A stretch of DNA of 64,000 nt, taken from the IMG/VR virus record IMGVR_UViG_3300010354_020206, positions 1 to 64,000 of that record; one strand, 5' to 3'. A program made the translations under genes and the position numbers. Source of the stretch: a virus. Shown here in pieces: positions 3,255 through 63,521 of this stretch (the first letter of the stretch is position 1; each line of letters starts with the position of its first letter). The notes below the pieces were generated by a model. The model was not told the DNA's origin. It saw only the letters and a list, made by a program, of their open reading frames with translations, and made no database searches.

Positions 3255-6200
3255 TCACAACAAATCATCAGGGAATAAATCTAATGACTTCATTCGTACT
3301 TTCTTAACGTCCCTTGTTCTTTTGGGAAGCGTATTTTCAAAACCAAACAAATTATCATCGTCTCCAGAAAGCATTTGTTCCATAGGTGAAATAACTTTAT
3401 ACTTTAGCTTTGCTACTCTTTTGGCTTCCTTTTCTTGCTGATTTCTCTTCTCAACAGAAGCATCCCACATTTCCATTATTTGCTCTACTGTTTTACTTTT
3501 GACACCAGGCAAACAATCCAAAGCATTTGCATGAGCTAAAGACTCTATCATACCTCTGTTAGGGCGAGCCCTCATAGCAAGGTCATCTAAGTCTTCATAA
3601 GGCTGATTATCTACAATAGACTTTGAACTGTCACCCACCCCCTTTACAGAATTCAATGGCAAAAGAATGTCTCCACGCTTATTAACTGTAACACTCAAAC
3701 CACTTTCATTTACGTTAGGTGTCTTTACATGAATGCCTTCAGCAGAGCATTCTCTGCGGTATACAGCCATCTTATCCTCATCATCACGGTCACACTGCAT
3801 ACAAGCAGCTAGCCATTCAGAAGGGAAATAAGTTCTAAGATAAGCAGTTGAATAAGCTAATAATGAATAAGCACAAGCATGACTTCTATTGAAAGCGTAA
3901 CCAGCAAATCCTTGTAATCTTTGCAGTACTTCTTCGATAGCAGCATGTGGAATGTTGTTCTTAGTAGCCCCTTTTCTAAACTTTTCACAAATCTCTGCAA
4001 ACTCCTTAGGCATTTTCTTGCTCACAGCTTTACGAAGTTTATCTACATCATTATGATTGAAACTAGCCATTTTGCGACCAAGTTCCATTGCTTGTTCTTG
4101 ATAAACTGGAATACCATAAGTTACACCAAGAATGTCCTTGATGATAGGGTGAGAATACTTTACACTATTTGGATTTTTCTTACCATCTGCATAGTTAGGA
4201 ATAAATTGAAGGGGGCCTGGTCGGAATAGAGCATTGATAGCAATAAGGTCTTCAATACAGTCAGCCTTAACTTCTTTCAAAGCTTTTTTCATTCCAGCAG
4301 AAGCAAACTGAAAAACAGAATCAGTTTTACCTTCTGTGAAAATCCTAAGTACTTTAGAATCTTCATTGCCCTCTAATAATTTAATAAAGTTTGGAATCTT
4401 ATCCGCTCCGTGTCGTGTCTCAATCATATCAAAGCATAAAGCAATCATTGTAAATGTGGCAAGTCCAAGAACATCATACTTGGTGAGACCAACATGAACA
4501 ACATTACCCATGTCAAATCCAGATGCTAACACGCCCTTTGAGTTTTCTAATGGTGCATGTTCTGCAATAGGTTCAGAAGCAAGCAATACGCCAGCAGCGT
4601 GAACGCCAAAGTTTTGAATTACACCAACAAGCTTTTTTGCAATTTTGATTTCTTCGGGCCACTTTGATGCATAAGAAGCAAATTCTGGAGATTCCTCAAG
4701 AGCTTCGTCAATAGTAATTCCTGGGCGAGAAGGAATTGATTTTGAGATGTCCTGCGCGCGATAGTGTGTTTGATCACCATGCTTTGCCTGGAAAGCAGAA
4801 CTTACTTTCAAAGAACCCATCACAGCTGCTTTTGCCTGATAAGTGCCCCATGTGCCGATTTGGGAACATTTGTCATTTCCAAATCGATTTCTCATCCAAT
4901 CAATAACCTTTTCTCGCTTTTGTTTATCAACGTCAGTATCAACATCGGGGAGTTCAGCAATACGAGAAACGACTAATTCAGTTTCAGGTTTTTCATCAGT
5001 GATGCCTAGTGCCCAGGCAGTCCAAAGCTGACAATCATTATTTACACTTTTAATACCCTTGTTTGCCACATCAATGATGTAGTTAGACAAGCCCTGATTT
5101 TCAAGAACCCAAAGTTCTTTATAAATTTGGGGGGCATGCTCAGGATTTTGCTCAGCAACAAGCTCCATCTTTTTTCTTAATTCATTGTTGGCAATGTGTA
5201 AATCTGTATTAGTGCCTTGTTCTCTCCAAGCATCGACAGGAAGATCAGAAATTTCTACTTTATACTGTTCACCACGGCCAGGATTCAAAAATCTTTCAAA
5301 CATAAGATTCCAGCGCAAAGGGTCAACCGTACAAACTTGTAGACAATAGTTAACAAGTGAGCCAACTCCAGAACCGCGTATTCCGTAAAGAATACTTTCT
5401 GTCTTCATGTAATTAGCCATTTCTCTTTCGATAAGGAAGTAGTCAACTACACCCATGTAGCAGATAGTGTCAATCTCATAGCGCAATCTTTCTACATAAT
5501 TTTTCTTAGCAGAATGACCAAGCTTAGCTAGGCCATCAAAAGCCAAATACGCAAGATAGGCTTCATTAGGCTTATGATAAGGATAATACTTGGCCCTGAA
5601 TCTATTAAAACGCTCATCATTTTCTGGGATAATGACTCTGGGCAAGAGATGTGGTACGCCAAGCTTCATGAAATCTTCAACAGATTCACTTAACAATACA
5701 GTATTGGTTAAAGCCTCTGGAATCTTAGTTCCAAAGATCTTTTCCATTTCTTCATATGTTTTGAGATGAAAATTCTTAGTAGAATAAGCTTGAAATTTAC
5801 CACTGACATTATTGTCTTTGTCTTGATCTCTCATGCTTATGTGCAATTTATGAACTTTCCAATCTTCTTGTTCAAGATAATGAACATCATTGGCACAAAC
5901 CATAGGAAGATCGAGTTTACGGGCGATTTCATGGAGGCCAGGAATCAAAATGGTTTTTTGCTCCTCAATACCATGATAGTGCATTTCGATGTAGTACCTA
6001 TCTTGGTATTGACCTTTGAACCATTCCGCAACTTTCAAAGCTTTGTCTTTTTCACCACGAAGCAAGAGCTGAGAAACTTCACTACCCATACAGCCAGACA
6101 AAGCAATCACACCCTCGGAATGCCTTGACAATACATCTCGGTCAATAGTTGGTTCGTAGTAATAGCCTTCTTCAGCACCAATAGAAGCCATCTTAAGAAG

Positions 6201-10309: not shown

Positions 10310-11116
10310 TCAAGACGCGAATGGTTGTGGAGGCATTGGTGTTGGCAAAGTAATCTTAAAGCAAGAACTAGTCATACTTGACCAACCAGGACCAGCATCT
10401 ATTTTGTCGTATCCATCATAAGCACTCAGAACAATTGGCTTGCCCGATTTTATTCGTGACCTTCCAATTCTATCTAATTGAATACCTAATGTAGGATTCC
10501 GAATTTCATAATGCGTGATGCCATCAATGATGATTAAATCTTTAGTCGCAAATTCTTCTGCATAATCAGATTGTTTATCTCTATTATCAAAGCCAGAAAG
10601 GTCAGCGTACAAATCTGCGTAGTCATAGTAGGCAACTGTAAGCTTCTTCCTTACAGCTTCTTGAGCAAGAACAGAACAAATTAAGCTCTTACCACTCCAC
10701 TGACCCCCTACTAATAATAAGCTAAGCAAATTGATAGTAGTACCCCTGTTGGGGATAATCTTTATTGGGCGACCTGCGCAAAGAGCTGGAAGAGCATTGA
10801 TGTATTTATCCATTACAGACTTAATCTTAATCTTCTTAGCCAGTGCTGCTTGGGTAAGATTGTTGCCCCAAGGATCTTGTTTTAAGTTCCAATTTTCAGA
10901 TAATGTTTTACCAAAATATTTAGGAGGTACACCAGCTGTTACATACTTATCCCTCCACATTTGTTCTTTTAAACAATGACATAAAACGGCTTTACCGTCA
11001 GTATTCAGCCATGATCCTTTCCCTCCACAAGAAGAACAAGAGCCGCTGGCAACTTGACCTTCGGCCCTCAATGATTCTAAAAAGTCTGACTCATCTCTGG
11101 ATAACTCAAAATTCAC
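10310..11116 (-). CDS. DnaC-like helicase-loader ATPase with N-terminal zinc finger
   Basis: A 268-residue AAA+ protein. Residues 25-50 carry CSSCGG...LCHC, a small zinc site as in DnaC/DnaI loaders. The ATPase core has Walker A GGQWSGKS near residue 138 and Walker B LIIIDGI near residue 195, with SAYDG following. Its position directly upstream of the dnaB-like gene supports a role in opening or loading the helicase ring. The start codon is GTG, overlapping the TGA stop of the upstream AAA gene (GTGA), with AGAGGA about ten bases upstream; this implies coupled translation. Two aspects are atypical: the Walker A has WSGKS, and the C-terminus is Pro-rich. Confidence 0.8.
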   Translation of the reverse strand: MNFELSRDESDFLESLRAEGQVASGSCSSCGGKGSWLNTDGKAVLCHCLKEQMWRDKYVTAGVPPKYFGKTLSENWNLKQDPWGNNLTQAALAKKIKIKSVMDKYINALPALCAGRPIKIIPNRGTTINLLSLLLVGGQWSGKSLICSVLAQEAVRKKLTVAYYDYADLYADLSGFDNRDKQSDYAEEFATKDLIIIDGITHYEIRNPTLGIQLDRIGRSRIKSGKPIVLSAYDGYDKIDAGPGWSSMTSSCFKITLPTPMPPQPFAS

Positions 11117-12765
11117 AATTCTTCATCCTCTTCATTAGATACATTTTCCATCAAAGCTTTAACTGTATCAATTATTTCTTGGTCTTTGATCTTGCGCTTC
11201 TTAATCTTAGAAGCGTGTCTAGCTCTTCTATTCGCCCATGACCTAAGCCCATCAATTTGCTCTTTCATAGTTACAGCAAGCGGGACTGTATCTTCAATGG
11301 CATTCATAATATCTTCGGTCGTAAATTCTCTTTTATTGTCATCAAAAGCTTCATACATAGCCGAAATTATTGCAGCTTCTATTTCAGCTCCAGTGAAACT
11401 TGCTGATTTATCAACTAAATTATCTATGTTGAATTTAAGAGGATCTCGTTTTCTTTTGCTCAAGTGAATTTTGAAGATTTCAAATCTTTCCTCTTCAGTT
11501 GGCAAATCCACAAAGAAGATCTCATCAAATCTACCTTTTCTCAAAATTTCAGGGGGCAATTGCGAAACATCATTTGCAGTTGCAACCACAAGAACAGGAG
11601 ACTCTTTTTCTTGCATCCAAGTAAGAAATGATCCTAAGACCCTTGAAGCTGTGCCGCCATCAGTTTGGTTAGAAGATGCAGAGCCAGACATACCCTTATC
11701 CAATTCATCCATCCATAAAATAGAGGGACTCACGGACTCAGCTAATTTGATTGCAGTTCTAATGTTTTCCTCTGAAGAGCCAACAATCCCACTGAAGATT
11801 TTACCCATATCGAGTCTGATAAGAGGAAGTTGCCAGAATGATGATACACATCTGGCCATCAAAGATTTACCAGCTCCCTGGACACCAACAAATAAAATAC
11901 CTTTGGGGTTACCAGGCAAACCATATTCTTTAGCCTCTGTGGTAAAAGCGAATTTTCTTTGATGAAGCCAATGTTTAATGCCTTTCAAGCCACCAACTTC
12001 ATTAAAATTCTCATTCACTTCGATCCAATCCAAAAGCCCGGTTTTTCTGATAATTTCTCTTTTAACTCCAGCAATCTTAACTGGGTCAAGTGCATTGATG
12101 TTACTTACCATCATGTAAGTACAAAGAAGCTCGATTTCTTGAAGTGTCAAACCTTGAAAAGCTCTGATGATGTCTTGTAATTCAGGTTCTGAATAATCAA
12201 TTCTAAACCCCTTTTTTATTAATTCATTGTTTTTAGAAGCAGAAGCAATTACATTCTTCACCTTTTCTTCAATGTGCTCATATTCTGGCAAAGGCCAATC
12301 TATAACAGCACAAGATTTGTTAAGGTCTTCAGGAAGCATCAATGATGTGCCGAGAAGAATTATTGCCTTATGTTGTGAAACAAATTCCTGTGAAATGTTT
12401 CTAAGCATTCTTACACTTCTTTTATCATCCAATGTGCTTTCATCATGAATTATTTTAAGATAATCTTTTAATACCAATAGATAGAACCCATTGGTTTCAT
12501 CTTTGAGTTCTCTGAACCATTCAAGCACTTGCATGTGGCTCACAATTTTTGATTTTGGTAGAAGATGCTGGAAATCAGGAGTTGTAGTTAATCCAGAGGC
12601 AAGGTCCCAATAAAAAACTCCCCATGCGTCGGTGCCTCTTTTAGCTATAAAGCGAATTGCATCGCAAATTCTAGATTCTTCATGTGACGAAATAAAAATA
12701 AGGGGGCGATTTGATCTGATTTGCCAATCAAGTTCTCGCATTGATTTTTTATGTTCACTATCCAT
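11113..12765 (-). CDS. AAA+ ATPase, Ycf46-like
   Basis: A two-part protein of about 550 residues. The N-terminal region (DWQIRSNRPLIFISSHEE, then WGVFYWDLASGL) resembles the degenerate first ATPase domain of Ycf46 proteins. The second domain is a complete FtsH/Cdc48-like AAA module with GGLKGIKHWL before it, Walker A GVQGAGKS, Walker B ILWMDELDK, sensor VATANDV and arginine finger RKGRFDE. Ycf46 proteins are widespread in cyanobacteria and other bacteria, and their biochemical role is poorly known. A GTG-started longer form would overlap the terminator, whereas the ATG at 12765 has GGAG at good spacing and is chosen. The operon position suggests a role in remodelling replication or recombination complexes, which is inference. 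Confidence 0.8.
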   Translation of the reverse strand: MDSEHKKSMRELDWQIRSNRPLIFISSHEESRICDAIRFIAKRGTDAWGVFYWDLASGLTTTPDFQHLLPKSKIVSHMQVLEWFRELKDETNGFYLLVLKDYLKIIHDESTLDDKRSVRMLRNISQEFVSQHKAIILLGTSLMLPEDLNKSCAVIDWPLPEYEHIEEKVKNVIASASKNNELIKKGFRIDYSEPELQDIIRAFQGLTLQEIELLCTYMMVSNINALDPVKIAGVKREIIRKTGLLDWIEVNENFNEVGGLKGIKHWLHQRKFAFTTEAKEYGLPGNPKGILFVGVQGAGKSLMARCVSSFWQLPLIRLDMGKIFSGIVGSSEENIRTAIKLAESVSPSILWMDELDKGMSGSASSNQTDGGTASRVLGSFLTWMQEKESPVLVVATANDVSQLPPEILRKGRFDEIFFVDLPTEEERFEIFKIHLSKRKRDPLKFNIDNLVDKSASFTGAEIEAAIISAMYEAFDDNKREFTTEDIMNAIEDTVPLAVTMKEQIDGLRSWANRRARHASKIKKRKIKDQEIIDTVKALMENVSNEEDEEL

Positions 12766-12775
12766 AACATTCTCC

Positions 12776-12806
12776 AAAAAATTGGGTGGATTAATTTCCA
12801 CCCAAT
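12776..12806 (-). terminator. Terminator with the stop codon in its loop (copy 2), inside the operon
   Basis: ATTGGGTGGA (12781-12790) pairs with TCCACCCAAT (12797-12806). The loop TTAATT holds the stop of the upstream gene and the T run comes next. The 20-base core is identical to copy 1 at 2560-2579. It sits only a few bases before the AAA gene, so it probably attenuates the downstream replication genes. Confidence 0.8.
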
Positions 12807-13669
12807 AAAGTATAGTATTTAGCTAAAGGATTACCTTTGTAATCTTTATCTCGCCACCAAGTTTCTGTTTTAAAAAATGAAGTTAAGCTTTGGAAAGTTT
12901 CTCTCCATTCTAACCCGAGAAACTCTTCTGGATAAGGAGAATTTATGATAGATGAATTAAACATTCTTTCAAGAATTTCTACATCAGAGCTCTTTTTATC
13001 ACCAAATCTTACATTCAAACTAGCTATAACTTTAGACTGATCGTAGCCTTTAACCTTAACGAGATAGGTTACTGTAATTGGAATTCCAAATCTAGCAAAT
13101 AGTTCTGTTGCTTTCACTTTGTCTTGCAAGGAGTTAATTTCTTCTAACAAGCTTGTATCTGCAGAATCTCTAACAACATCGCCACTTTCAACTTGGGGTA
13201 AGATTTCATCTTGATAGAAGAAATTAATAGAATTGAATACACTAAGCAAAGTTATGTAGTTGTATTTTCTAATAATTTGTTCACTATTGTCGAATGCCCA
13301 ATCGAATAATTTCTTTGTAAATTCATTCCTTTCAAGCCCGTTAGAAGAGAAAAAATCACCGATCTGCTTAATTATTGGTAAATCAGATGTAAATGTAATC
13401 TTATAATTTCCCCCAATAAAAGATTGATATTTTCGTGCAAAATAAGTTACAAAGTTTTTATTTGTCCAGTCAGAAACATTTTCCGGCAATTCTGCTGGTG
13501 CTTTTTTTGTAATCATTTCATCAAGTGTAACTTGAGAATTTTGCCTTCTTTTTGGCTTGAAGGGATTGACTAGCTGGCCCTCTGGCGGAACTTCAATGGA
13601 CATAATATTTGTGACTATCTTGTGAACTGCATCATTCCTATTTTTCATGTGTCTGACACTCGCTACCAT
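12791..13669 (-). CDS. Hypothetical protein downstream of the SbcC C-terminal half
   Basis: A 292-residue protein of unknown function. The first 70 residues are basic and Pro-rich (PPEGQLVNPFKPKRRQNSQ), likely a flexible tail. The rest alternates hydrophobic helices with aromatic patches (NKNFVTYFARKYQSF, LLSVFNSINFFYQDE). No catalytic or metal motif is seen. It overlaps the upstream SbcC-like gene by 7 bases and ends in GGN followed by a stop inside a terminator hairpin, exactly like the gene at 2567-3247. The resemblance is limited to that ending; no overall similarity was seen. A repair or recombination role is suggested only by its position. Confidence 0.7.
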   Translation of the reverse strand: MVASVRHMKNRNDAVHKIVTNIMSIEVPPEGQLVNPFKPKRRQNSQVTLDEMITKKAPAELPENVSDWTNKNFVTYFARKYQSFIGGNYKITFTSDLPIIKQIGDFFSSNGLERNEFTKKLFDWAFDNSEQIIRKYNYITLLSVFNSINFFYQDEILPQVESGDVVRDSADTSLLEEINSLQDKVKATELFARFGIPITVTYLVKVKGYDQSKVIASLNVRFGDKKSSDVEILERMFNSSIINSPYPEEFLGLEWRETFQSLTSFFKTETWWRDKDYKGNPLAKYYTLLGGN

Positions 13670-14367
13670 TCTTCGTTTTCTTTACCTTCCTGGTATGTAA
13701 TTATACCTGCCTGAGCCACACCATCATCCTTAGTAATGTGAACAATATTATCGGCTTCTGGACCGAATTTATCAAACATGTGAGTAACTAAAATTACTTG
13801 TCTGCCAGTAGAGTCAGTGACTTCTCTCAAAAATTGAACAACTTGGTCAATTTTATAATCATTTGACATTGATTTCCAAGCTTCGTCCAAAAGAATTGGC
13901 CCGTTGTATTTTAACCATTTTAATGCTGCTATACGAAGCGCGAAAGATACAACTTCAATTAGGCCTCCACCTCTCTCATTAAGCAAGCCAGTTTCCATCT
14001 CTTCGCCATTGTGTGGACTAACTATTTTAATTTCTATCCTAAAATTATTAACTCCATCTTTTCGCTGTTCTTCAAAAGTATCAAATTTCAAAGAATACTT
14101 GTCACCATAAATTTGCTGTAAAGCAGAAGTTGCTATAGCTTGAATCACATTGAGTTGCGATTGTCTCCTGTCTACAATTTCACTTAACATGAACAAGCTT
14201 GCCTGACTGTTCAGCTTTTGTTCATCTTGTAAATTTACTAAAGCATCTTCTTCTTCTTTAATTTGCTTTTCAAGTTGCTCTTTCACACCTTTGAGTTTTA
14301 TGAGAGATTCTTTTTGTTTTTTGATTTCTTCTGTGAATGATTCAAGCCTGTCGCTTAAAGCTGTCAT
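13663..14367 (-). CDS. Rad50/SbcC-type ATPase, C-terminal half
   Basis: A 234-residue protein that equals the back half of an SbcC/Rad50 ATPase. Residues 1-55 are coiled coil (EEIKKQKESLIKLKGVKEQLE). Then come the ABC signature region (LLNERGGGLIEVVSFALR), Walker B with catalytic glutamate (GPILLDEAWKSM) and the H-loop (QVILVTHMFDKF). There is no Walker A, which lies in the separate gene at 15573-16712. The two halves must pair to make a working nucleotide-binding domain. The start ATG overlaps the stop of the 88-residue coiled-coil gene as ATGA. With SbcD/Mre11 they should form the phage DNA-end-processing complex (T4 gp46/gp47 equivalent). Confidence 0.85.
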   Translation of the reverse strand: MTALSDRLESFTEEIKKQKESLIKLKGVKEQLEKQIKEEEDALVNLQDEQKLNSQASLFMLSEIVDRRQSQLNVIQAIATSALQQIYGDKYSLKFDTFEEQRKDGVNNFRIEIKIVSPHNGEEMETGLLNERGGGLIEVVSFALRIAALKWLKYNGPILLDEAWKSMSNDYKIDQVVQFLREVTDSTGRQVILVTHMFDKFGPEADNIVHITKDDGVAQAGIITYQEGKENEEW

Positions 14368-14630
14368 TCTTCATGGCCCTCATTTATTTTATCTCGTTCT
14401 TCCTCAAGTTCGGTTAGTAGAGTTTCGATTTTAGATTCATTGGTTTTGATAAATTCAGGCAACTGTTTAACTGTGAGTTCAAGTTCTTCTTTGCACTCAG
14501 TTTCTAATTCAGACACTTGATTTTTCAATTCACCAAGTCTTTTTTCGTGAATCTTGATAGAAGTTTCTGCGCTAGAAATGTCTTTTTCCAGCTGCTTAAT
14601 TCTTTCAGCAACGCTATTTACAGTATTCAT
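14364..14630 (-). CDS. Small coiled-coil protein between SbcD and the SbcC C-terminal half
   Basis: An 88-residue, almost wholly heptad-patterned protein (AERIKQLEKDISSAETSIK; KTNESKIETLLTELEEERD). It has one cysteine, no CxxC hook and no catalytic motif. It ends by overlapping the start of the SbcC C-terminal half (ATGA) and begins just after the nuclease stop. It may supply extra arm length to the split Rad50-like complex, so the coiled-coil arm would be built from three polypeptides, or it may be an unrelated coiled-coil partner. The coiled coil is visible in the sequence; the role is inferred. Confidence 0.7.
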   Translation of the reverse strand: MNTVNSVAERIKQLEKDISSAETSIKIHEKRLGELKNQVSELETECKEELELTVKQLPEFIKTNESKIETLLTELEEERDKINEGHEE

Positions 14631-14634
14631 AATA

Positions 14635-15594
14635 TCAATTATCGGTCAAAGCTTTCAATGTTTGGATTGCATGATCTGCAACTTTTTCTTCTATGCACTT
14701 CAATTTTGCAGATTTTTTTAGCGACTCATAAATATCTTCTTCTAAGTCAGTGAGGCTCATCATAGAAATTTGCTTGATGTATTTCTGAGCGTCATGCTTA
14801 TTGTCTTTGATTGCTTGTGCTTCTTCAATTTTGAAGATTTCATCAGCTGGTTTACTGGATTGTAATTTGATGTACTCTTTTTGATAAATTGCGCCAGTTA
14901 AATCATATTCTAAAAATAAAACTTGAGGTTGTTTAACAATGTTTGTATCGTTCAAGCTTTTTCTGCAAACAGAGCCTGGATTCATAAAATGAACTCCATC
15001 TGTTCTGACCTTTTCCATAGCATCATGAATGTGGCCACATACAACGATTTTAGTTTTTTGATTTAATGGAAGATCATCAAATAATACATAGGAACCAAAA
15101 TAGGGGGCTAAAGTGATAGAAATGTGAGCAGCAACTACAGGAAACTCTTTATCAAGTAAAAATCCTTCTACACATTCTTCAACTTTAGTTGCTGTATGAT
15201 GCATAAGGTAAATACCATAGTCGTTTATAGAATCATCAGTTTTTAAAGCTCCAGCTTCAATCAAAGTTCGAATTGATGAAATAGAATAATACTGTTCGAG
15301 ATTGTGCCTGACATCATGGTTGCCAATTAATGTGTACCAAGGAATCTTACTTTGTAACAAGATTTTCAAATAGCCATTTCTTACAAATGGGCCAGGTTCA
15401 ATTCGATGAAATACATCACCAAGATGAAGTACTAAATCACATTGTTTCTCATGTGCGATCTCAACAATTTCTTGCAATTCTTCTAAACAAGCTTCAGCAT
15501 AATTGTCTTTTCTCTTTTCTGGAGTTGTATCGTCTCCATGAGTGTCCCCCACTACTAAAATTTTTATTTTATTTAAATTAGAGGTCTGCTGCAT
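14635..15594 (-). CDS. SbcD/Mre11-type nuclease
   Basis: A calcineurin-fold metallophosphoesterase of about 319 residues with the full set of motifs: GDTHG near residue 18, LHLGDVFHR near 60, IGNHDVRH near 95, an AAHIS histidine near 160 and VVCGHIHDA near 185. The remaining C-terminal region is a capping domain with a final helical segment. It is the nuclease subunit that pairs with SbcC/Rad50 in DNA end processing (T4 gp47). The ATG at 15594 is preferred to a TTG at 15606. The gene overlaps the end of the SbcC N-terminal half by about 22 bases, so expression of nuclease and ATPase is coupled. Confidence 0.92.
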   Translation of the reverse strand: MQQTSNLNKIKILVVGDTHGDDTTPEKRKDNYAEACLEELQEIVEIAHEKQCDLVLHLGDVFHRIEPGPFVRNGYLKILLQSKIPWYTLIGNHDVRHNLEQYYSISSIRTLIEAGALKTDDSINDYGIYLMHHTATKVEECVEGFLLDKEFPVVAAHISITLAPYFGSYVLFDDLPLNQKTKIVVCGHIHDAMEKVRTDGVHFMNPGSVCRKSLNDTNIVKQPQVLFLEYDLTGAIYQKEYIKLQSSKPADEIFKIEEAQAIKDNKHDAQKYIKQISMMSLTDLEEDIYESLKKSAKLKCIEEKVADHAIQTLKALTDN

Positions 15595-16712
15595 GCTTCG
15601 CACCAATTGCCTTTCGCTTTGAGTTCTTCAATTAATCTTTTCAATTCTTTTTTATTATTGACAATTTTCTTTTTTTCAGTTTCAATTAAAACATTTAAAG
15701 AATTCTGCTCTTCTTCTATTTTGCTCAAATTATTAATAAAATTCGATGCTTTGTTGTTGCTTTTATTAATTTCGTTTATTGTTTCTATTTTATCTAAATT
15801 ACTTTGAGATCTAAAAGTTTTCAATTTAGAAATTTCAACTTTAGTTTTGTTAAATTCGTCCGCATAGGATTTATAAGATTTAATAATTCTTTTCGCTGAT
15901 GCTACATTTGAATAAATTTGTTCTAAATTTTTGAATTTAACATTTAAATTTGATAACTTTGAATTCAAATCAATTTTCTTTTTCAAACTTTTTGCTTCTT
16001 GAACAATTTTATTGTTATCAATGATAAATTGTCTTGCTTTGTTAGTTTTTTTGATTTCATTATTGATACTATCTAGCTTTTGCTCAATACTTTCAATTGA
16101 TTCATAGTCTTTATCAACATAAGAATATTTTTCAAGCTCAACATTTAGCTTTTCTATCTTATCATTTTTATCTTTAATAACTCGATCAAAAGACCGGGCG
16201 TTTTTTGATAAAGTTTCAGCAGCGCTTTGAAGATTTTGAATTCCTGTTAACTCCGAAAGAGTTCTAGGCAAATCAGCGGGTGACAAATCTACTAGAAAAA
16301 GGTTAGCCATTTGATCAGCATAAGCTATTGGACGCTTCTTATCATCTAAAGGGGGCTCTCCTAATTGTTTTTTAATTTCTTCTGGAACAGAAGTACCAAC
16401 TTTTGGGAACGAATGATTATTGCCTTCTGAATCTTTGAGATTATAAGAATTAACATCATTGCCTTTTATTCTAGTTACTTCAACACCATCAGAAAATTTT
16501 AAAGTCACTCTACATTCTGTAGTACCATGCCTGATAAAACTGTCGCCTTTTAAATTATTATGAAATACAAAATTAACAGCCCTCAAAATTGCAGACTTAC
16601 CAGCATCGGATGACCCCACTATGAGATTTATCCCATTGGTTAAAGAAACAACAGAATCCTTATGATCCTGAAAATTTTCAAGTCTGATTTCGGTAAGGTA
16701 TCTAGTAGACAT
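15573..16712 (-). CDS. Rad50/SbcC-type ATPase, N-terminal half ending in a zinc-hook motif
   Basis: A 379-residue protein equal to the front half of SbcC/Rad50. It opens with IRLENFQDHKDSVVSL and Walker A GSSDAGKSAILRAVNF, followed by a beta-rich lobe and a Q-loop region (YADQMANLFLV). About 200 residues of coiled coil come next (SIEQKLDSINNEIKKTNKARQ). The protein stops five residues after WCEACSRPLI, a CxxC that fits the Rad50 zinc hook, which normally lies mid-protein at the arm tip. Signature, Walker B and H-loop are absent here and are found in the separate 13663-14367 gene. The start overlaps the upstream stop as TAATG. Confidence 0.88.
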   Translation of the reverse strand: MSTRYLTEIRLENFQDHKDSVVSLTNGINLIVGSSDAGKSAILRAVNFVFHNNLKGDSFIRHGTTECRVTLKFSDGVEVTRIKGNDVNSYNLKDSEGNNHSFPKVGTSVPEEIKKQLGEPPLDDKKRPIAYADQMANLFLVDLSPADLPRTLSELTGIQNLQSAAETLSKNARSFDRVIKDKNDKIEKLNVELEKYSYVDKDYESIESIEQKLDSINNEIKKTNKARQFIIDNNKIVQEAKSLKKKIDLNSKLSNLNVKFKNLEQIYSNVASAKRIIKSYKSYADEFNKTKVEISKLKTFRSQSNLDKIETINEINKSNNKASNFINNLSKIEEEQNSLNVLIETEKKKIVNNKKELKRLIEELKAKGNWCEACSRPLI

Positions 16713-34351: not shown

Positions 34352-35497
34352 ATGGGTTTATTATTTTTAGATTCATTTGATGATAGATATTTTGCAGCAG
34401 GTTCTTCCTATGCATCTTACCACGCAAAATGGGATGATATTTCAGAAGATGCGGCAGGTGGTTATTTATTAGAACAAGTTACGGGTAGAACTGGTAAAGC
34501 TTGTAAATTAGGGGGCAATTCTTATCTTAATAAAACTGGACTCAATATCGTATTTCAAGCTTTGACTTGGGGTGTAGCATTAAAAGTAACATCTGCTCCC
34601 GTATCGGAAACATCAATTGTAACAGTCAAAATAACATCAGGGCTAGATACATATTACATAACATACAAGCTTTTGGCAAGCTTATATGTTAAAGTTTATG
34701 ATACAACTGGATTGGAATTGGCAACATCATCATCGGCATTAAGCTTAAATACTTTTTATTACATTGAATCTTCGGTTGACATTAGTGGCTCGACTATTAC
34801 CTTATATAAGGATGGTTCCAATTGGTTTTCTGTGCCAAATGTAGCTCCTGCTGCTTTGGTCGAAGCAACTATTGATGCAATTAAATTCAGTGGTGGAATT
34901 ACTATTGATGATCTTTATTTAACCAATAACAACTCTTCAAGATTAGGCTCAATTAAAATAGACGCAGTGGTGCCAAATGCAAATACTTCACTTACAAGAG
35001 CAAATCCATGGACCGCAAATTATACAAATGTAGATGAATGTTATCAAGCTAACCACGATGGAACGACAACTTATGATGTTAGCAATACAGCTTCTCCAAG
35101 TAGTGTTTCATATAATTTCACTGATGCTTCATCAATGAACTTGTATGGAATACAATCATGTTGTTGGGTTTCTTCCTATAAAATTACTGGATCTCCCGGC
35201 AACATTACTTTTAGTGCAATCACAAATGTTTCAGGCACAGATTACGAATACGCAACAACAAAGATTTTGGCCCCTAGTAGTCCTGCTGTGTGGTCATTAT
35301 TGAGGGGAGTTTGGGAAAACAACCCAGCAACTTCCACATCTTGGACAACTTCAACTTACAATAGTGCGGAATTTGGAGTAAAATCATCAGGACATGTATC
35401 AGGACAAAGTTCTGGCTATTTGACTGCAATTACATTAGAAATGGGTTACATAGCTACAGCACCTGAAGCAGGCTCCAGAGTATTCATTATCTCTTAA
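34352..35497 (+). CDS. LamG/concanavalin-like virion protein
   Basis: A 381-residue beta-rich protein. The start GLLFLDSFDDRYFA followed by GRTGKACKLGGNSYL, then YYIESSVDISGSTITLYKDG and IDDLYLTNN is the common pattern of phage structural proteins with a LamG-like jelly roll. The second part (NANTSLTRANPW...) is another beta domain also seen with it. These proteins usually decorate tails or capsids and bind glycans. An AAGGAG site precedes the ATG. The gene is convergent with the giant fibre gene, and their stop codons share the bases TTAA at 35494-35497. Confidence 0.8.
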   Translation: MGLLFLDSFDDRYFAAGSSYASYHAKWDDISEDAAGGYLLEQVTGRTGKACKLGGNSYLNKTGLNIVFQALTWGVALKVTSAPVSETSIVTVKITSGLDTYYITYKLLASLYVKVYDTTGLELATSSSALSLNTFYYIESSVDISGSTITLYKDGSNWFSVPNVAPAALVEATIDAIKFSGGITIDDLYLTNNNSSRLGSIKIDAVVPNANTSLTRANPWTANYTNVDECYQANHDGTTTYDVSNTASPSSVSYNFTDASSMNLYGIQSCCWVSSYKITGSPGNITFSAITNVSGTDYEYATTKILAPSSPAVWSLLRGVWENNPATSTSWTTSTYNSAEFGVKSSGHVSGQSSGYLTAITLEMGYIATAPEAGSRVFIIS

Positions 35498-38400
35498 TCA
35501 TAGAATACAGTAATGTGAACTTCTGTGACACTTGTTTGAGTACTCATTTCTAACCATATGAAACTGTTCGCAGCAGCATTAGCATTTGCAAATGTTGTTG
35601 TTACATTGCCGGTGGTAGTACTCGTTGTAGATTGCGTAGCACTAAATACTGCAGTTCCCGAAGTTCTATCTGTTCCGTAATAAAGCTGCCAAGAAGATGT
35701 GGCTGAAGTTCCTCTAATCACTGAAACAACTTTAGTGAATTTGATTGCAGTATCTGTGTAAAACATAGTAATTCTATCCGAGCTTGTAGGACTTAAGATA
35801 GTAACAGATTTGCTATTTGGTTGGACAGTTACAGAATAATCACTTGTTATAGAATCTGGAGCCTTTAACGTTACACTATTCGAGCCGTTTGCAGCCAATT
35901 CAAAGAATTTAATTCCATAAGTATTTCCAGCACTAGCACCATAGGGCTGCAAATTCATAGATGTAGTGCCCACAGTTAGCAAAGCTGTGGCAAATGTGGA
36001 ATAAACTTCAAATAAATTTACAGACTGTGATGTAGTTCCTACAACTCTGAGTGGAGTTACAGTTGCCCCCTGAGCAGAAATTGTTAAATGCTGGCCTGAT
36101 GCAGAATAGTCCATTGCAGTTGCTGTAGTTATTGCACCAGTGGTTGAACTAGTATTACTAATTAAAATTTTACTAGTTGTAAATGAAGTTGCTCCTGTAC
36201 CTCCATTAGATACAGACAAAGTGCCAACACTAACAGTGCCAGAAGATGCTGATAGTGCACCTGATGCCGATCCTAATACTAAGCTTCCTGGAATTGATAC
36301 AACGCCAGAAGAATCTATTTTAAATCTATCTGTGAAAGATGCTGTACCAGTATCAACAGAAGACTTCCAAACTAAAGTCGCTAAAGGAGAAGCTCCACTC
36401 GTTACCTGAACTTCTTGTCTAAATCTTGCAGTGTTGTCAGCAGCAGCTGGTGTGGTATTCCAAACATGTCCAATAAATTCAAGAGCTGGTGAATGTTGAG
36501 CGGTTACCAAATTAGTAGCTGAAGAATTATTGGCTATCTGTAGGCCTAAGTAAGAATTTGTAGCTATATTATTTTTTGTTATTGCTAAATTGGAGGTTGT
36601 AGTATTAGATGATTGTAAGGTTAATCTTTGATCAGCGCCAACCCATGTAAAATTATTATCTGTACCAATGTTACCGGTATTATTGCCATACATAATTCTA
36701 TTAGCACCGATGGATGAAACACCAGTGCCACCATTGGCAACTGATAATGTTCCGACACTAACAGTACCTGATGAAGCTGACAATGCTCCGCTTGCAGAAC
36801 CAACTACCAATGACGAGGCAGTAATTGTTGCTGCACTAAAATTACCAGAACTGTCTCTTGAAACAATTGTGCTAACAGTGTTAGCACTAGTAGCGTTACT
36901 GGTGACAGTGAACGTCGTATTTACTGATGTATTAGCTGAAAAACTTGCAGATCCCGATAATCCAACTCCTGAGACTGCCAGAGTCAATGAAGCATCTTTG
37001 ATGTCGCCTGCAACCGCTATAGTATCAGTTGATGTTGGCAATGTTAGAGTATTGCTGGAAGGAGTAGATGATGCTTTGATTAAAGTTGTACCACTAGTTG
37101 TGCCACTGAAAATCAATCCTCCTGTTCCAATTGTTTTATTTGCAAGTGTTTGAGTATTGCTTAAAGTTGCCACTACAGTAGTGTCTACAGAGAAACTTGT
37201 ACCTGTTAAAGTAATACCAGTGCCATTGGTGTAAGTAGTATTGGTATCAGTGGCTGAAAGAGTTCCTGCTGAGAATGTTAAATTTGATCCAATAGTAACA
37301 CTGCTGAAGCCACCAGAACCATTTCCATATAAAATTGATGTGCCACTAGTGACAGGAGCATATAAAGATGACAAAGAAGGAATGTCATTGGCGACAAGAG
37401 CCCTGAAAGATGGCGCAGTTGCTGAACCTGTAGTTGGGCCCGCAAATACATAATTAGCAGTTGCTGTAGTAGTTCCAATTCCACCACTAGAAATAGCAAG
37501 GGCATTTGTTAAACTTAAAGTTGTAATGTTGGTAGTTGATAGGTAAGAGGTTGAACCAACTCCTAAGCCACCTGTAACAACTAAAGCGCCAGAGGTTGTT
37601 CCAGATGAAGTCTGAGAAGAGTTTATAGTTACTATACCAGAACTAGAAATTCCAAACTGGCTAGAATCAGAACTATCTACTATTGATAATAGGGGTTGTG
37701 ATTGTGATACAGCCCCCTTTAATTTTAATGGGGTAACAGTAGCGCCACTCGCAGTGATTGTTAAATTGTTTGAAGATGTTGAATAAACTACTGCGGAAGC
37801 CGACAACAAAGAACCAGTTGTGGTTGAACCGCTAATTATCATAGTACTGGTATTAGAAAATTCGGATGTACCTGTGCCGCCGTTTTCTACAAGTAACTGA
37901 TTAGTAACTGCTGCTGATTTTGATAAATCTATAGCTCCAAAAGCTGGCGCTCCTCCTGCTCCTGGTATTCTCAGAATTTGATCAGCAGTGCCTGATGTTG
38001 TAATGAAGGCACTTGTACCATTCCCTAAAATAACTGAATTTGTAGTAAATGTAGTTGCACCAGTTCCACCATTTGCCACCGTTAAAGCTGTGGATAAACT
38101 AACTGTTCCATTAATAGTTATGTTACTTGTTCCAGAAGTTGTGCCAACGACAATTGTTACAGAGCCTGTACCAAATGCTCCAATGTTAATGAATTTAGTA
38201 GCTGAACCAGAATGAGAGAACAAATTTAACGTTGAAGTGCCACTTGCACTATTATTTGCAGCCGTGGTCCCAATGTTAAAAATCGAAGTGGCATTAGTTC
38301 TGTGTAATAAATCAATTTGTTGGGCCGAAGTGCCAAAAGTAATAGTGCCTGTACTAGTATCTAAAAATGCAACATTCGCAACACTTGATCTTATTCTTCC

Positions 38401-41400
38401 AGAATTCAAATTTATTATAGTACCGGATCCAGCCGCTCCAGATGCTAATGTAATTGTTGTTGCGTTGGAAGCTGTAAAAGCAGTGCCGCTGAAAGCGAAT
38501 GAAGGATTTTGTATCGTTGCGGTTCCAGAAGATGTAGTTCCTAAAGTAACAGTTGTAGCTGACGAAGCAACTAAACTAGTTCCTGTAACATACACATCTT
38601 CTAAATAAGAATCTGAGCTTACTCCTATGCCCCCTGTAACTACTAAAGCTCCTGTAGAAGTGCTTGATGCAGCAGTTGAATTGGATAAAGTTAAAATACC
38701 TGTAGATGAGATAGTAACTAGAGAAGCATCAGAAGAATTTGTTATCTTCATCAATGGATCTGACTGTGAAGCTATTCCTTTCAGAACTAAAGGGGTAGCT
38801 GTTGTTGAACCAGCAGTAATTAATAAATGGGGGCCTGTAGATGAATAAGTTAAGTAAGTAGCATCATCTACTACAGTTGAACCATTAGAATCTTTATAAT
38901 AAGCTAATTTATATTGATCGCCTGCACTGACGGTTCCAGAACCAGAACCAGATGCGTCGTTGGCCCATGATAAAGTGACAACTCCAGAAGTTGGAGCAGA
39001 TGCAGATAAAACTTGCCCGCTTGTTGGGGCCGATGATGGTAAAACATAAGTATAAGATGTTGTTATTGAATCTGGGGCTTTCAATCCAATATATTCAGAA
39101 CCTGACAATTCTCCAAATCTTAATTCAAATGTGTTCCCGGCGCTTACACCATGTGGTGAGAATAAAAGATTTGATGTTGAATGAATTATGTTAGCAGATG
39201 TTTCTATAACGCCAGTAGTAGACAAAGAATTACTGATCAAAAGTCTGCTGGTTACAAAAGATGAAACACCAGTGCCACCATTTGTAACAGAAAGAACACT
39301 AGTACCCACTGTAGCAGATGAAGCTAAATTGATACTTCCAAAGCCAATACTTGTGCCACTTCTTCTTAAAATTTGATGATCTGTAGCAGCAATTATTTCG
39401 CCAAAATTTCCAGCACTATCTGTATTTCTGCCAACAACTGACAGACCAGACGCGTTTGAATTAACGATTTTAGCAAACGTTATTGCATTGCTAGAAATTG
39501 TAGCCGCGAATGAACTAGTTCCTGAGCCTGTGACATCACCTGTCAAAGTAATTGTTTGATCGCCTGAGTTAGTTCCTGAAATTATTGAAGTTGTAGAAAC
39601 AGTTAAGTTTCCTGACAAAGAAATAGTTCTATTTTCATTATTAACACTTAAATTAAGTGTCCTGTCCTCTGTAAGATTTTCCGAATCAGTAATTTTTAAA
39701 TAATGAGATGATAATGTGTCATCCCTTAAATGTATGTCACCAAAATAAGCATTTTGCGTAGAAGATGTAGAATTTGATAAAGCATCAGTGATTCCATAGC
39801 CAGATAACGTAGTAGGTTTAGAAGTTATGTTTGAAAAAGCAGGCGAAATAGTAGAAGCAACACCAATTGAAGTAATTCTGCCCTTGGAATCAACAGTAAA
39901 CGGGGTAATAGAAGTTGTGCTGTTATTGTATGTTCCAGCAGTTACACCAGATGCTGCTAATGTAGCAGCAAAAGAAGAGGTTCCTGAGCCTGTAACATCA
40001 CCTGTCAAAGTAATTGTTTGGTCACCAGTGTTAGTACCAGATAACGTTGTATCACCACTCAAAATTATTGTTCGATTAAAGTCTCCTGTGTTTATACTAA
40101 GAGTTCTAGTTGTTGATAAATCTGCTATATTTAAAATCTGCAAATAATTGCTTGGATTAGTAGTTGTATCGTATAAATTAACATTCCCAAAATATCCAGA
40201 TTGAGTTGAAGAAGTGGAATTTGACAAAGCGTCAGTAATTCCATACCCGGATAGTGTAGTAGGTTTAGAAGTAATACTTGAAAAAGAAGGAGTCAATGTT
40301 ACAGTGCTTCCTGTAGAAGTTATTCTACCTTTTGAATCCACTGTAAATGGAGTAATCGAAGTTGTACTATTATTATACGTTCCAGCAGTTACTCCCGAAG
40401 TTGATAAAGTTGCGGCAAAAGAAGTCGTTCCCGAACCTGTAACATCACCTGTTAAAGTAATTGTTTGGTCACCAGTGTTAGTACCTGAAATTTCAGAATT
40501 AGCTGCAATTGTTAAAGTTCTATCTCCATCATTTGTTTTTATGTTCAAAGTTCTAGAAGTAGAAAGATTATCAAAATTTACTATTTGAAGATAACGTCGT
40601 GTAGCATTAGTATCACTTTCTAAAAGATAAATGCTGTTAAAATAACCATCTTGAGTAGAATTTATGGCACTTGATAAAGCCCCCAAATTTGTTAAAGCCT
40701 CAGCAGCTGTAGATGCATTAGTGCCTCCACTTGCTATTGGAAGTTTACCAGAAATTGCTGCAGCTTGATCTAAACTAACAGTCCCCCATGTGGGAGTTCC
40801 GCCTGAGCCTGACACAAATACTTTGTATTGACTTGAAGTAGCAGTTAATGTTACTGCAGACGTACCTGTGCCAACTAGCACAGCATTGGATGTTAGAGAT
40901 GAAGTGCCTGTGCCCCCTTTACCTACAGTGAGCGCATCGCCTGAAATGTCTGTAAATGTTAAAGCCCTAAATGTTGGTGCAGCAGCAGCGCCTGTAGTTG
41001 GCCCAGCTAATACTGTGTTGGCGTTTTGATTTGCTAATGTGACTGTTAGAGTGCCTGATGTTGTTACTGGATTATTGCTGACAGTAAAAATATTAGGCAT
41101 ACTTAAATCTACACTAGTAACAGTTCCATTGCCAGTTCCAGCCCCAATGGCAGTTCTAAAAGCAGCGCCAGTAAGCAAGTTAACAGATGTTGTGCTTATC
41201 TGTATGTATCTAATTGCAGTTGTAGACAATGTAAATAAAGCATCACCAAGAGCTGAAACTCCCAAATCTGTTCTAAAATCAGAGGCAGATCGTGCCGTTA
41301 CAGTATTGTCAGAATTAATTCGAATGAATGTTGTTGCGCCTGGGTTGCTAAGAGTAAAAATGTTAGAGCCTACGGTATTTGCACCTAAATCAGCTCTAAA

Positions 41401-44281: not shown

Positions 44282-47200
44282 TTATGTTCTGATTGCTGTT
44301 GCAGCAGCTTTATAAACAGTAATTGCATTAGCTGGAGTAACTTTTAATCTCAAATTTCCACTTGAAATATCAGCGTCAAAGGTGGACAAAGATCCGCTTG
44401 TCATAATTCGTCCATACTCCGAAATAATTACTGATGTTCCATCATGTACTAATACTATTTCTACTACATGATAACTTCCACCTGAAGTAACTTGCATAAA
44501 GTATTTAACACTTCTATAAGTAGAGGCGCTTATTGAGTGTAAAATTTGATCAGCTGTTGTAGCACTAGTAGTCAAATTGCAGGACAAAAGATCAAAAATG
44601 CTATCAATAACAGGTGAATTTAAAGTTTTATTTTGAAGTGTTTGAGTTGAACTCAAAGTAGCTACAACAGAAGTATCTACGCTAATAGTGCCTGCCGCAG
44701 AGCCATTATAGGATGTTGAGCTAATTGTCAAGCCGCCACCAGAGGAGGTAGATAAACTATTCAAATTATTGCCCAAACTAACACCACTAATAGTTGAGGC
44801 AGCCAACTTTGTTATTGCAATTGCCGCTGATGTATTTATGTCTGCATTAACAATTGTATTATTGGCAATCATGTTACTTGTAATAGTGCCATTGTCACCA
44901 GTGGTAACAATCGTGCCATTGTTGTTAGACAAAGTTATAGTATTATTGCCAGCTGTTGAATTTGCAATAATTTTAGTAGTGCCTGTTGAACCATTGAATG
45001 TTATTCCGGCAGACCCAATAATTCCAGTATTAATTGTTGGGGACGTTAAAGTTTTATTTGTAAGTGTTTGCGAATCTGAAGTACCTACTATGTCTCCCGA
45101 TGGCGCTGTTACAAGTGAAGCTGTACCAGTGGTAAATTTTAAAATACCAGAAGATGCACTGAAATTTACACCTGTTCCACCATGGTTCACGGGTAAAGGA
45201 TTACCATTGTTTAAACTAATCACAGTTCCATTGATAGTAATAGGATCTGAATCAGTGTATGTTGTACTGCCTGAAAATTGAGAAAATACAATACTAGATG
45301 TGCCAACGTCAATTGCACCAGAACTTGACATAACCCAGCCAGTAGCTGAATTAGTATCTCCAGAAGTCACAAATACAAACAAACCGGATGTTACTTCACT
45401 GTCTTCATCAGCATCTGTAGTTCTAGTTAACACCCAGTTTGTGGTCGCACTTCCTATGTGAGAGGTTGATGCAATGTAATAGATGCCATTTTGTAATTGT
45501 GTCGATTGATCTTTGACTAAAACTCTGTCCAGATAAGCTAAACTTACATTGTCAATCGATAATGCAGATTGAGAACCATTATTTGTTAAAGTTGCACCTA
45601 CACCATTGGTGCCATTGCTATAGGTACCAGATAAATTTGCAGTGGATGCAACTCTCACCGAATCTTTTACGATCAAGCCCTGAGATACACTATCAACATA
45701 TCCTTTAGTTGCTGCATCTTGGTCGTTATCTGGATTAGCAAGATTAATAATCTTCTTACTACTTACATCAACAAAAGCAGATGAACCGGGTACTAGAGTT
45801 ATGTTACTCGAAGTTCCAGTTGCAGTAAATGTCAAAGCGCCAGTGCCTGTTATAGAGCCGTCTACAGTCCCGGTGCCACCATTTGCGATAGGCAAAGTAC
45901 CAGTAACATCATTTGTTAATCTGACAGTTAAAGTATTGCTAGTTCCTGTAATTGTTTTATTTGTTAAAATTTGAGTATCATTTAATGTGGCTACAACGGT
46001 TGTATCAATAGCAAAAGAAGTTCCAGTAAGAATAATTCCAGTGCCATCGGTGTAAGTTGTGTTATCAGTAGAGATTGTAAAATTTGGGTATGTACCTGTT
46101 ATTGTTACGTTTGCATTTCCTGTACTTAGCGACACTGTTTGATCAGGAGCAGAATTACTTATCTCTCCAGCAGAAAAACTTAAGCCAGTTCCAATTGTAG
46201 CATTGCTAAAACCACCACTTCCATTGCCATAAAGAATAGAAGTACCTGTTGTTTGTGGCGCATAATTTAAAGCCGGGATGTCAGAAGATACAAGAGCTCT
46301 GAAAGTAGGAGTTGTAGAAGCGCCCGTTGTGGGGCCAGCGAATACATAATTAGCAGTTTGAGAAGCAAGAGTAATTGCAAAAGTGCCCGATGTTGAAATT
46401 GATGAAGTGCTGACATTTAAAATGTTAGGTACTGTTAAACCCACACTGGTGACTGTACCATTGCCAGTTCCTGCACCAATAGCAGTTCTAAAATTTGTGT
46501 CATCTAATAATTCAACCGTGTTATCGGCTTTAATTTTGATAAATCTTATTGCACCTGGAGATGACACAGTAAATAGAGAGGCTCCTGTAGTAGTTGCCCC
46601 CAAATTTATAATTGCAGTGGTTGCTGTTGATGCTCCAGTTCCACCATTAGCAATCGCAACAATTCCTGTTACATTAGAAGCATTACCACTGACATCTCCA
46701 GTAAGATTTGCAGTAATTGTATTAGCACTGAAATTACCAGATGAATCTCTAAAAACGATTGTACTTGTTGAATTAGAGCTTGTAGCATTACTATCAACCG
46801 TAAAGGTAACATTGCTTGAAGTATTAGCTGAAAAACTTGCAGAACCAGAAAGCCCATTGCCTGAAACGGCAAGAGTTAATGTTCCATTTTTAATATCCCC
46901 TGAAACGGCAATCGTATCTGTGGCAGTTGGCAATGTCAAGGTGTTACTAGAAGGGGTCGCTGATGCAATGAGCAAAGTTGTACCACTAGACGTTCCACTA
47001 AATCTCAACCCAGAACTACCAATTGTTGAAGTATTAATAGTTGAAGTATTAATAGTTGAAGTATTAATAGTTGGCGAGTTTATTGTTGGAGATGTAAGTG
47101 TTTTATTCGTTAAAGTTTGGTTGCCTGTTAAAGTTACAACAGTATTATTTATGGAAAATGATGTACCTGTTAAGGTGAGGCCTGTACCATTTGTGTATGT

Positions 47201-53052: not shown

Positions 53053-54297
53053 ATGGATAATTCTGGTTGTGGTGATTCCGCTAGCATTCTGAATGCAATA
53101 AATGGCAATAGCAACATAGCTACATTAGATGCTTTTGGAAGGAATAGAGTTTCTGAACCTTTTACAATATTTGATAGTTTTCATAGGTATAGAGAAAATG
53201 AAAAATTTAGCTATTCAACTAATGGATCTGGATCAAAAACCTACAGTGCCAATGAAAGTGTAGTTAACCTGAATGTCACAAATGCTTCAGGAGATTATGT
53301 TTATCAAGAATCTAAAAGAGTTATGCCTTATCAACCTGGTAAATCTTTTCTGGTTATGAGAACTTTTGCAATGGCTACTCCTAAAGCAAATTTACGACAA
53401 AGAATTGGTTTTTTTAGCACTCAAAACGGGGTCTTTCTTGAACAAGATGGTACAACACTTTATTTAGTTTTAAGAAGCTATGTAGGTGGTTCTGTAGATG
53501 ATTCGAGGAAAGTTGCACAGTCAAGCTGGAATGGCAACAAATTTGATGGCTCAGCATTTTTCCCAAGACAATTAGACGTTACCAAAGCAAACATTTTTTG
53601 GATGGATGTTGAGTGGCTAGGTGTAGGAGATGTTAGATGTGGCTTTATAGTTGACGGGGTGCCAGTAATTGCTCATACTTTTCATAATGATAACTTAAAT
53701 TTAACAACTTACATGACCACAGCAACTCTGCCATTAAGAGAAGAAATCGAAAATACTGCAGGAACAAGCGGATCTTCAACCATGAAAGTTATTTGTTCTA
53801 CAGTAATTTCTGAAGGTGGATATCAAGGTGCAAGCGAGGTTCGTACTGTTTCAAGTACAATAATAGCATCTGATTATAAAATGTTATCAACTGCTGGAAC
53901 TTTATACCCTATGGTATCAATAAGACTCAAAAGCTCAAGACTCGATTCTGTAGTTTTACCTGTGCAAATTGATTTTTTAGGACACACTGCAGATAATTTT
54001 CAATGGAGACTTTTATTAAATCCAACTTTAAATTCAACAGGTGGGTTTACAGATTTTAGTTCATATAGTTCTGTTCAATATGATACTAGTGCTACTAGCA
54101 TGTCAGACATTGGAACGGTCATTCAGGGTGGAATAGTTTATCAAAAAACAACAGCAGAACTTGGCGGAGTTCAAAATTTCAATTTGCAACTTGGAAGGAC
54201 AATTCAAGGCACTAGTGATATTATTACTTTAGCAGCCTCAGGTTCTAACACAAATGCCAAATGTATTGCTGGAATTGGATGGATGGAATTAGTTTAA
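53053..54297 (+). CDS. Phage structural protein (type common in cyanophages)
   Basis: A 414-residue beta-rich protein. ATLDAFGRNRVSEPFTIFDS, RVMPYQPGKSFLVMRTF, RQRIGFFSTQNGVFLEQDG and TLYLVLRSYVGGSVDD are hallmarks of a widespread virion protein family known from cyanophages and other marine phages, whose exact place in the particle is not settled. It starts one base after the signal peptidase stop, with GAGG at proper spacing, so the two are co-translated. Its stop shares TTAA with the convergent epimerase gene at 54294. It is the last virion gene before the glycan cluster. Confidence 0.85.
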   Translation: MDNSGCGDSASILNAINGNSNIATLDAFGRNRVSEPFTIFDSFHRYRENEKFSYSTNGSGSKTYSANESVVNLNVTNASGDYVYQESKRVMPYQPGKSFLVMRTFAMATPKANLRQRIGFFSTQNGVFLEQDGTTLYLVLRSYVGGSVDDSRKVAQSSWNGNKFDGSAFFPRQLDVTKANIFWMDVEWLGVGDVRCGFIVDGVPVIAHTFHNDNLNLTTYMTTATLPLREEIENTAGTSGSSTMKVICSTVISEGGYQGASEVRTVSSTIIASDYKMLSTAGTLYPMVSIRLKSSRLDSVVLPVQIDFLGHTADNFQWRLLLNPTLNSTGGFTDFSSYSSVQYDTSATSMSDIGTVIQGGIVYQKTTAELGGVQNFNLQLGRTIQGTSDIITLAASGSNTNAKCIAGIGWMELV

Positions 54298-55319: not shown

Positions 55320-55329
55320 AATTTGTAAC

Positions 55330-56169: not shown

Positions 56170-56170
56170 T

Positions 56171-63519: not shown

Positions 63520-63521
63520 TT

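Follow-up and report, generated by a model that had tools for sequence, protein, structure and literature searches.

A viral gene set that probably encodes a three-piece Rad50/SbcC divided at its zinc hook

Rad50/SbcC is taught as a single chain that is obliged to fold back on itself at the zinc hook. Here we describe four genes of the window, the 64,000-nucleotide viral stretch at positions 1 to 64,000 of IMG/VR record IMGVR_UViG_3300010354_020206, that very probably encode a naturally split, three-piece Rad50/SbcC working with the nuclease SbcD. The original prediction, made from the letters alone, had proposed a protein cut at the hook with the nuclease gene and a small coiled-coil gene between its halves, and all four genes are indeed present as minus-strand open reading frames (ORFs; Table 1). 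In the assembly that we envisage, the Walker A lobe and a long arm ending in half a zinc hook at the C-terminus would come from the N chain; the C chain would supply a short arm returning to the head and the lobe that bears signature, Walker B and H-loop; and the two lobes would pair non-covalently to form one ATP-binding cassette (ABC) ATPase head. By analogy with Rad50/Mre11 biology, two heads would dimerise on ATP, two hook ends would join via zinc and SbcD, placed at the head or the arm base, would cut DNA ends or hairpins in the course of replication and recombination of the phage, while the coiled-coil protein most likely packs on the arm, where it makes up for what the returning strand lacks.

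Table 1. Coordinates of the split gene set, its motifs and neighbours in the window, and of related loci (positions within the locus named).
Feature	Positions	Strand	Remarks
N half of split Rad50/SbcC, 379 aa	15573..16712	-	Walker A in the N lobe; long helical arm; CxxC at the C-terminus
Walker A GSSDAGKS, N-half residues 33-40	16593..16616	-	G33, G38, K39 invariant in 22 N halves
N-half helical arm, residues 158-366	15615..16241	-	AF2 helices 158-195, 197-300, 303-366; pLDDT mostly 73-90
Half zinc hook C371-E-A-C374	15591..15602	-	Five residues before stop; C371, C374 invariant in 22 N halves
22-nt overlap of N-half and SbcD genes	15573..15594	-	SbcD start codon over second hook Cys codon; L002 equivalent 6001-6022
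SbcD/Mre11-like nuclease, 319 aa from ATG 15594	14635..15594	-	Metallophos 3.4e-17; phrog_100 SbcD-like 1.9e-16
88-residue coiled-coil protein	14364..14630	-	Candidate third arm piece; equivalent gene beside almost every N/C pair
C half of split Rad50/SbcC, 234 aa	13663..14367	-	Short arm, then C lobe; phrog_15167 'ATPase' 1.8e-24
C-half arm, residues 1-67	14167..14367	-	AF2 helix 2-87; invariant R68 marks head side
Signature-like motif ERGGGLIEVVSFALR, C-half residues 131-145	13933..13977	-	G133-G135, L144, R145 invariant in 21 C halves
Walker B PILLDE, C-half residues 157-162	13882..13899	-	D161, E162 invariant in 21 C halves
H-loop histidine H196	13780..13782	-	T195, H196 invariant in 21 C halves
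169-aa protein, Cys-rich CPVC...CLC segment	16712-17221		Overlaps N-half start; conserved in L002
292-aa protein and AAA+ ATPase	12791-13669 and 11113-12801		Directly downstream of C half; same order in L002
Arm-less single-chain fusions	L092 5652-7754; L093 4764-6818; L094 5583-7670
Chromosomal operon recA-(recX)-sbcD-N-cc-C-rny-(ymdB)	L105 3951-7303; L119 6541-9928; L120 4148-7532; L121 6908-10277; L122 6171-9506; L123 6174-9609		cc, coiled-coil gene

Profile searches, proposed with the original prediction as a check, recovered both halves. The N half exceeds the cut-off of Pfam AAA_23, matches phrog_16465 at 1.8e-40 and matches the Rad50 profile PRK03918 at 4.1e-19, under the equivalog cut-off; the C half has no Pfam match and is recovered by phrog_15167, and the C halves of relatives match the C-terminal ends of Rad50 models. 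When the halves of a bacterial relative (L105) are laid on PRK03918 (878 positions), they are collinear, the N half covering positions 3-458 and the C half 681-876, and the PADLOC profile PDLC03859 (LmuB, 611 positions) is covered by the halves in the same collinear fashion. The N chain ends in ...GNWCEACSRPLI-stop. It had been predicted to end five residues after WCEACSRPLI; the five residues hold when counted from the CxxC, and the chain ends at WCEACSRPLI itself. At its tail, the N-half profile (474 positions) matches the Rad50 zinc-hook structures 6zff (E 4.5e-5) and 1l8d (7.7e-4) over positions 413-471, the match to 1l8d halting midway, at residue 61 of 112, and by its sequence the CxxC at the end of the arm thus qualifies as a Rad50-type zinc hook. 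For the C half, the predicted helical start, Walker B and H-loop were all found, and the predicted signature is only signature-like: its position holds NERGGG (RGGG..V.S..LR), which is conserved and in the expected place and is not LSGGQ/E.

Single-chain AlphaFold2 (AF2) models of the N half and the C half, built from 21-22 homologues, reached a mean predicted local distance difference test score (pLDDT) of 78.6 and 80.0 and a predicted template modelling score (pTM) of 0.36 and 0.61, respectively. The one N model that was folded consists of long consecutive helices in its arm, and Rad50 heads are among its best Protein Data Bank matches, in the form of the N-terminal chains 9a9j_A, 1f2u_C and 1ii8_A; the C model, a long helix followed by the head, matches the corresponding C-terminal chains 9a9j_B, 1f2u_D and 1ii8_B. 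Profile searches bear out these assignments at the level of sequence. Since the Rad50 entries 1f2t/1f2u and 1ii8 list the N- and C-terminal parts as separate chains, a two-chain head is physically possible.

SbcD contains the motifs of calcineurin-like phosphoesterases and exceeds the Metallophos cut-off; D17, H19, D60, H93, D94, H157 and H190 are kept in six relatives, and a C-terminal tail of about 60 residues is present, a possible place for the Rad50-binding helix-loop-helix. Its likely start is ATG 15594, as opposed to TTG 15606 given by the ORF finder, since a relative (L002, IMGVR 3300016476_001169, an independent viral contig of 104 kb) starts at the same ATG. The 88-residue protein matched generic coiled coil only in profile searches; a role as third arm piece is plausible.

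The same four genes occur in the same order in L002, at 56, 75, 60 and 74% protein identity, with third codon positions most variable. By the NG86 method, dN and dS are 0.38 and 1.67 for the N half and 0.17 and 1.93 for SbcD, dS being saturated for the coiled coil and the C half. On the basis of this purifying constraint (dN far below dS for the N half and SbcD), the split set is the product of neither chance nor decay. An IMG/VR scan with the C-half pair of the window and L002 and with a DNA pattern of hook plus stop recovered no relative beyond the one already known. The hook split, which the original prediction had suggested looking for in other phages, recurs in very divergent relatives and does so in differing gene orders. 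Bacillus phage vB_BboS-125 has N, an AP2-domain gene, a 78-residue coiled coil, C, a small gene and SbcD, the last (L003 7424-8404, NC_048735 22423-23403) missing from the record annotation; Microcystis phage Mvi-JY20 has N, SbcD, a 94-residue coiled coil and C; and in phage LR745208 (485 kb) the order is N, SbcD, coiled coil and C, with gaps between them. In Tunturiibacter phage Tunturi_5, N and coiled coil are followed at some distance by SbcD. All four genes were found in 27 of the 27 IMG/VR relatives of the vB_BboS-125 C half and also on nine bacterial contigs, and the C-half profile was matched at E < 1e-15 by 65 of 398 genomes, an even draw from the phylum of Moorella stamsii.

The cut falls at the hook in all split relatives, identically in at least three gene orders (N-SbcD-cc-C, N-(other gene)-cc-C-SbcD and SbcD-N-cc-C, where cc is the coiled-coil gene). 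Among 85 collected N chains, which include many close relatives, 84 carry a CxxC, and in 83 it lies at most 28 residues from the C-terminus; in one locus (L110) the N half is broken into two ORFs, of which the second ends in the hook. N and C halves co-occur in every genome examined in full, and where a locus is of sufficient length an SbcD gene is nearly always found next to the halves or close by. Because very divergent relatives keep it in spite of their differing gene orders, the split is an old and selected architecture. As an observation apart, many N chains of relatives have extra Cys or His residues after the CxxC (GGGC, HSH, HTH, GACC; e.g. L009, L012, L032, L034), which are possible additional zinc ligands; the N chain of the window has none.

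A chromosomal version of the set, in the order recA-(recX)-sbcD-N-cc-C-rny, is present in at least nine Bacillota genomes (L105, L108, L110, L111, L119, L120, L121, L122 and L123), some of them with a detected recX; in further loci, too, rny is the neighbour of the C half. With TIGR00618, which detected SbcC in 14 of 14 control genomes, no full-length SbcC was found among the top 25 candidates scored per genome in the chromosomal carriers searched, a result that is strong, not absolute; the same model identified a genuine SbcC alongside the split set in G107 and G396. Large SbcC_Walker_B proteins of the chromosomal carriers were considered as SbcC and rejected: the three inspected have no CxxC, one scores over the TIGR02680 cut-off and two weakly resemble TIGR02680 or MukB/SMC (structural maintenance of chromosomes). 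As no conventional SbcC was detected in most of them, the split set is probably the SbcCD of these bacteria. Its recA company in bacteria, together with the replication genes near the phage copy, fits recombination-dependent repair or replication.

In three loci (L092, L093 and L094), SbcD, N lobe and C lobe are united in a single chain of 684-700 residues that retains the C-terminal tail of SbcD and has no CxxC and no arm, and no coiled-coil gene lies nearby. In a tree of the N and C lobes these fusions group with split proteins (81/75 with L074), and all of them together stand apart from canonical SbcC at 100/100, in a tree with two canonical rows and several long branches in which the direction of change is not settled. 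The fusions support a joint assembly of SbcD, N lobe and C lobe into one functional unit, and, as hook and coiled-coil gene are lost together, they suggest that the hook and the coiled-coil protein belong to the arm.

We then considered the length of the arm, taken from the invariant head glycine to the CxxC. Bacillota N arms (N halves L009-L045 and L074-L111) cluster at 254, 301 and 348 residues, that is, in exact steps of 47 residues, and the autocorrelation of the N-arm sequence peaks at shifts of 47 and 94. Each unit comprises a run of about 42 residues with a heptad-like pattern, and Gly/Pro enrichment is highest at phases 27-30; the N arm of the window is shorter (213 residues) and its 47 period is not clear. 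The coiled-coil protein (median 78 residues) and the C arm (median 63 residues) are constant as the N arm changes, and a one-to-one length match of the two arm strands was rejected (correlation -0.14). Since the partner pieces are constant, one returning strand cannot pair with the extra modules residue for residue, and these modules are either folded upon themselves or covered by two or more coiled-coil proteins. The first helix of the coiled-coil protein is about as long as one module. As a speculative extension that we consider rather doubtful, the N arm could be a ruler of 47-residue helical modules, each of which may recruit one coiled-coil copy, giving a multi-subunit, length-adjustable, hook-ended rod in which the distance bridged would depend on the number of modules (5, 6 or 7 in Bacillota).

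Several observations weigh against a three-piece Rad50/SbcC. The Bacillota N arm (254-348 residues) is about twice as long as coiled coil and C arm together (about 140 residues), so a one-to-one antiparallel arm does not fit. The RGGG signature departs from LSGGQ/E, the cut-offs of the NCBIfam Rad50/SbcC equivalogs and of TIGR00618 are not reached, the Rad50 models being matched far below theirs, and the structure models are of single chains. Some 100 kb separate the two halves in Tunturi_5, and Microbacterium phage Magritte has both halves, its C half (record 431-922) far from an N half (L006 6007-7059) without CxxC, the hook being either lost or carried elsewhere. We also give some credence, tentatively, to a variant in which N, C and SbcD form a Rad50-like complex and the coiled-coil protein is a separate regulator or adaptor, such as a clamp of hook or arm or a tether to DNA or a recombinase. 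Its length (75-117 residues) is independent of the 47-residue steps of the N arm and its sequence is generic, as this variant would have it, yet its gene directly precedes the C half in nearly all loci, the protein is kept at 18-25% identity, and it is missing exactly where the arm is missing.

Other explanations fare far worse. LmuB profiles are among the best PADLOC matches for both halves and many LmuB proteins carry a zinc hook (PMC10586767), which would suit a Lamassu-like SMC system for defence or inter-phage conflict in place of repair or recombination. We regard such a system as improbable: the partner is SbcD and not an LmuA effector, no PADLOC effector was found among the proteins tested, the Walker B glutamate (Glu162) is intact where LmuB generally has glutamine (PMC10586767), and the chromosomal copies reside in a recA operon and the phage copy shares its operon with the gene of a DnaC-like helicase loader. 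The PADLOC matches were put down to shared ABC/SMC heads. It is slightly less probable still that the halves are enzymes with no relation to each other, labelled 'exonuclease' and 'ATPase' in databases, and do not form one head; PHROG keeps them as separate families and they lie far apart in Tunturi_5 and Magritte, but neither half has a full ABC site alone, both are collinear on one Rad50 profile and natural single-chain fusions exist. Rejoining of the halves by frameshift, intron or intein has a negligible chance, as the original prediction had argued for the frameshift: an entire gene separates them, nothing able to join the halves (RNA element, intein-like extension of either chain, shared frame) was seen at the locus, no intron family matched, and gene order varies among relatives, with the halves 100 kb apart once. 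A sequencing or assembly artefact or a decaying gene is equally negligible, the same arrangement being found under purifying selection in independent assemblies that include isolate phages and bacteria. Finally, no full-length SbcC was found in the record of the window (phrog_77 matches the N half only and PF13558 has no match) or in L002, both of which are possibly incomplete records.

The minus-strand genes from 17221 down past 13663 overlap or nearly abut and form an operon in the order 169-residue protein, N half, SbcD, coiled coil, C half, 292-residue protein and AAA+ ATPase. The C half starts inside an ATGA overlap with the coiled-coil gene, and the gene overlaps at the locus suggest translational coupling. 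The 292-residue protein and the AAA+ ATPase are possible functional partners of the split set. A gene downstream in the operon matches a DnaC-like helicase loader and a RecA-like protein is encoded at 130-1443 (bacterial RecA matches at 6e-23), which places the set in a setting of replication and recombination. Elsewhere in the window, two giant ORFs at 35494-44247 (2917 residues) and 44282-51202 (2306 residues) have internal Ser/Thr/Gly-rich repeats and are tail-fibre-like, and the genes at 54294-63983 resemble those of sugar-nucleotide enzymes, glycosyltransferases and methyltransferases.

A conserved natural split of this kind would show that a head made of two polypeptides is feasible and that a chain may end in the hook. 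It offers a ready system for testing the roles of arm continuity and of the hook, including by exchange of pieces and by arms of 5, 6 or 7 modules; exchangeable or multiple arm pieces are one possible benefit of the split. Several Bacillota lineages in which conventional SbcC went undetected are suggested to carry SbcC in pieces beside recA. Three scattered phage protein families would also be joined into one complex: phrog_16465 ('exonuclease'), phrog_15167 ('ATPase') and phrog_18563 (unknown) hold the N half, C half and coiled coil of vB_BboS-125 and its relatives, and PHROG lists them as unrelated single proteins in which a split Rad50 is unrecognised. A literature search that covered a minority of subscription journals and no bioRxiv preprints returned no description of a Rad50/SbcC divided at the hook, which is thus apparently undescribed.

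With Rad50/SbcC-Mre11/SbcD (PRK03918, PRK01156; 1f2u, 3qkt, 1l8d, 6zff) the split set shares both lobes, the long arm, the CxxC hook and the SbcD partner; unlike them it consists of two to three polypeptides with the hook at a chain end, an RGGG signature and a returning arm that is short or a separate protein. As in T4 gp46/gp47 and phage SbcCD (phrog_77, phrog_100), a phage ABC ATPase is found with a nuclease in a setting of replication and recombination, but T4 gp46 is one chain, whereas here separate genes match phrog_77 piecewise. Lamassu LmuB is likewise a short-armed, often hooked Rad50-like ATPase whose profile both halves match collinearly; it is, however, a single chain, with the Walker B glutamine and with LmuA in the place of SbcD. 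Fusion proteins of Mre11 and Rad50, Mimivirus R555 and others, have been described (PMC3175470) and indicate that these subunits tolerate re-partitioning. The arm-less fusions of L092-L094 are of this kind, but without arm and hook; and whereas such fusions join two subunits, the split set divides one.

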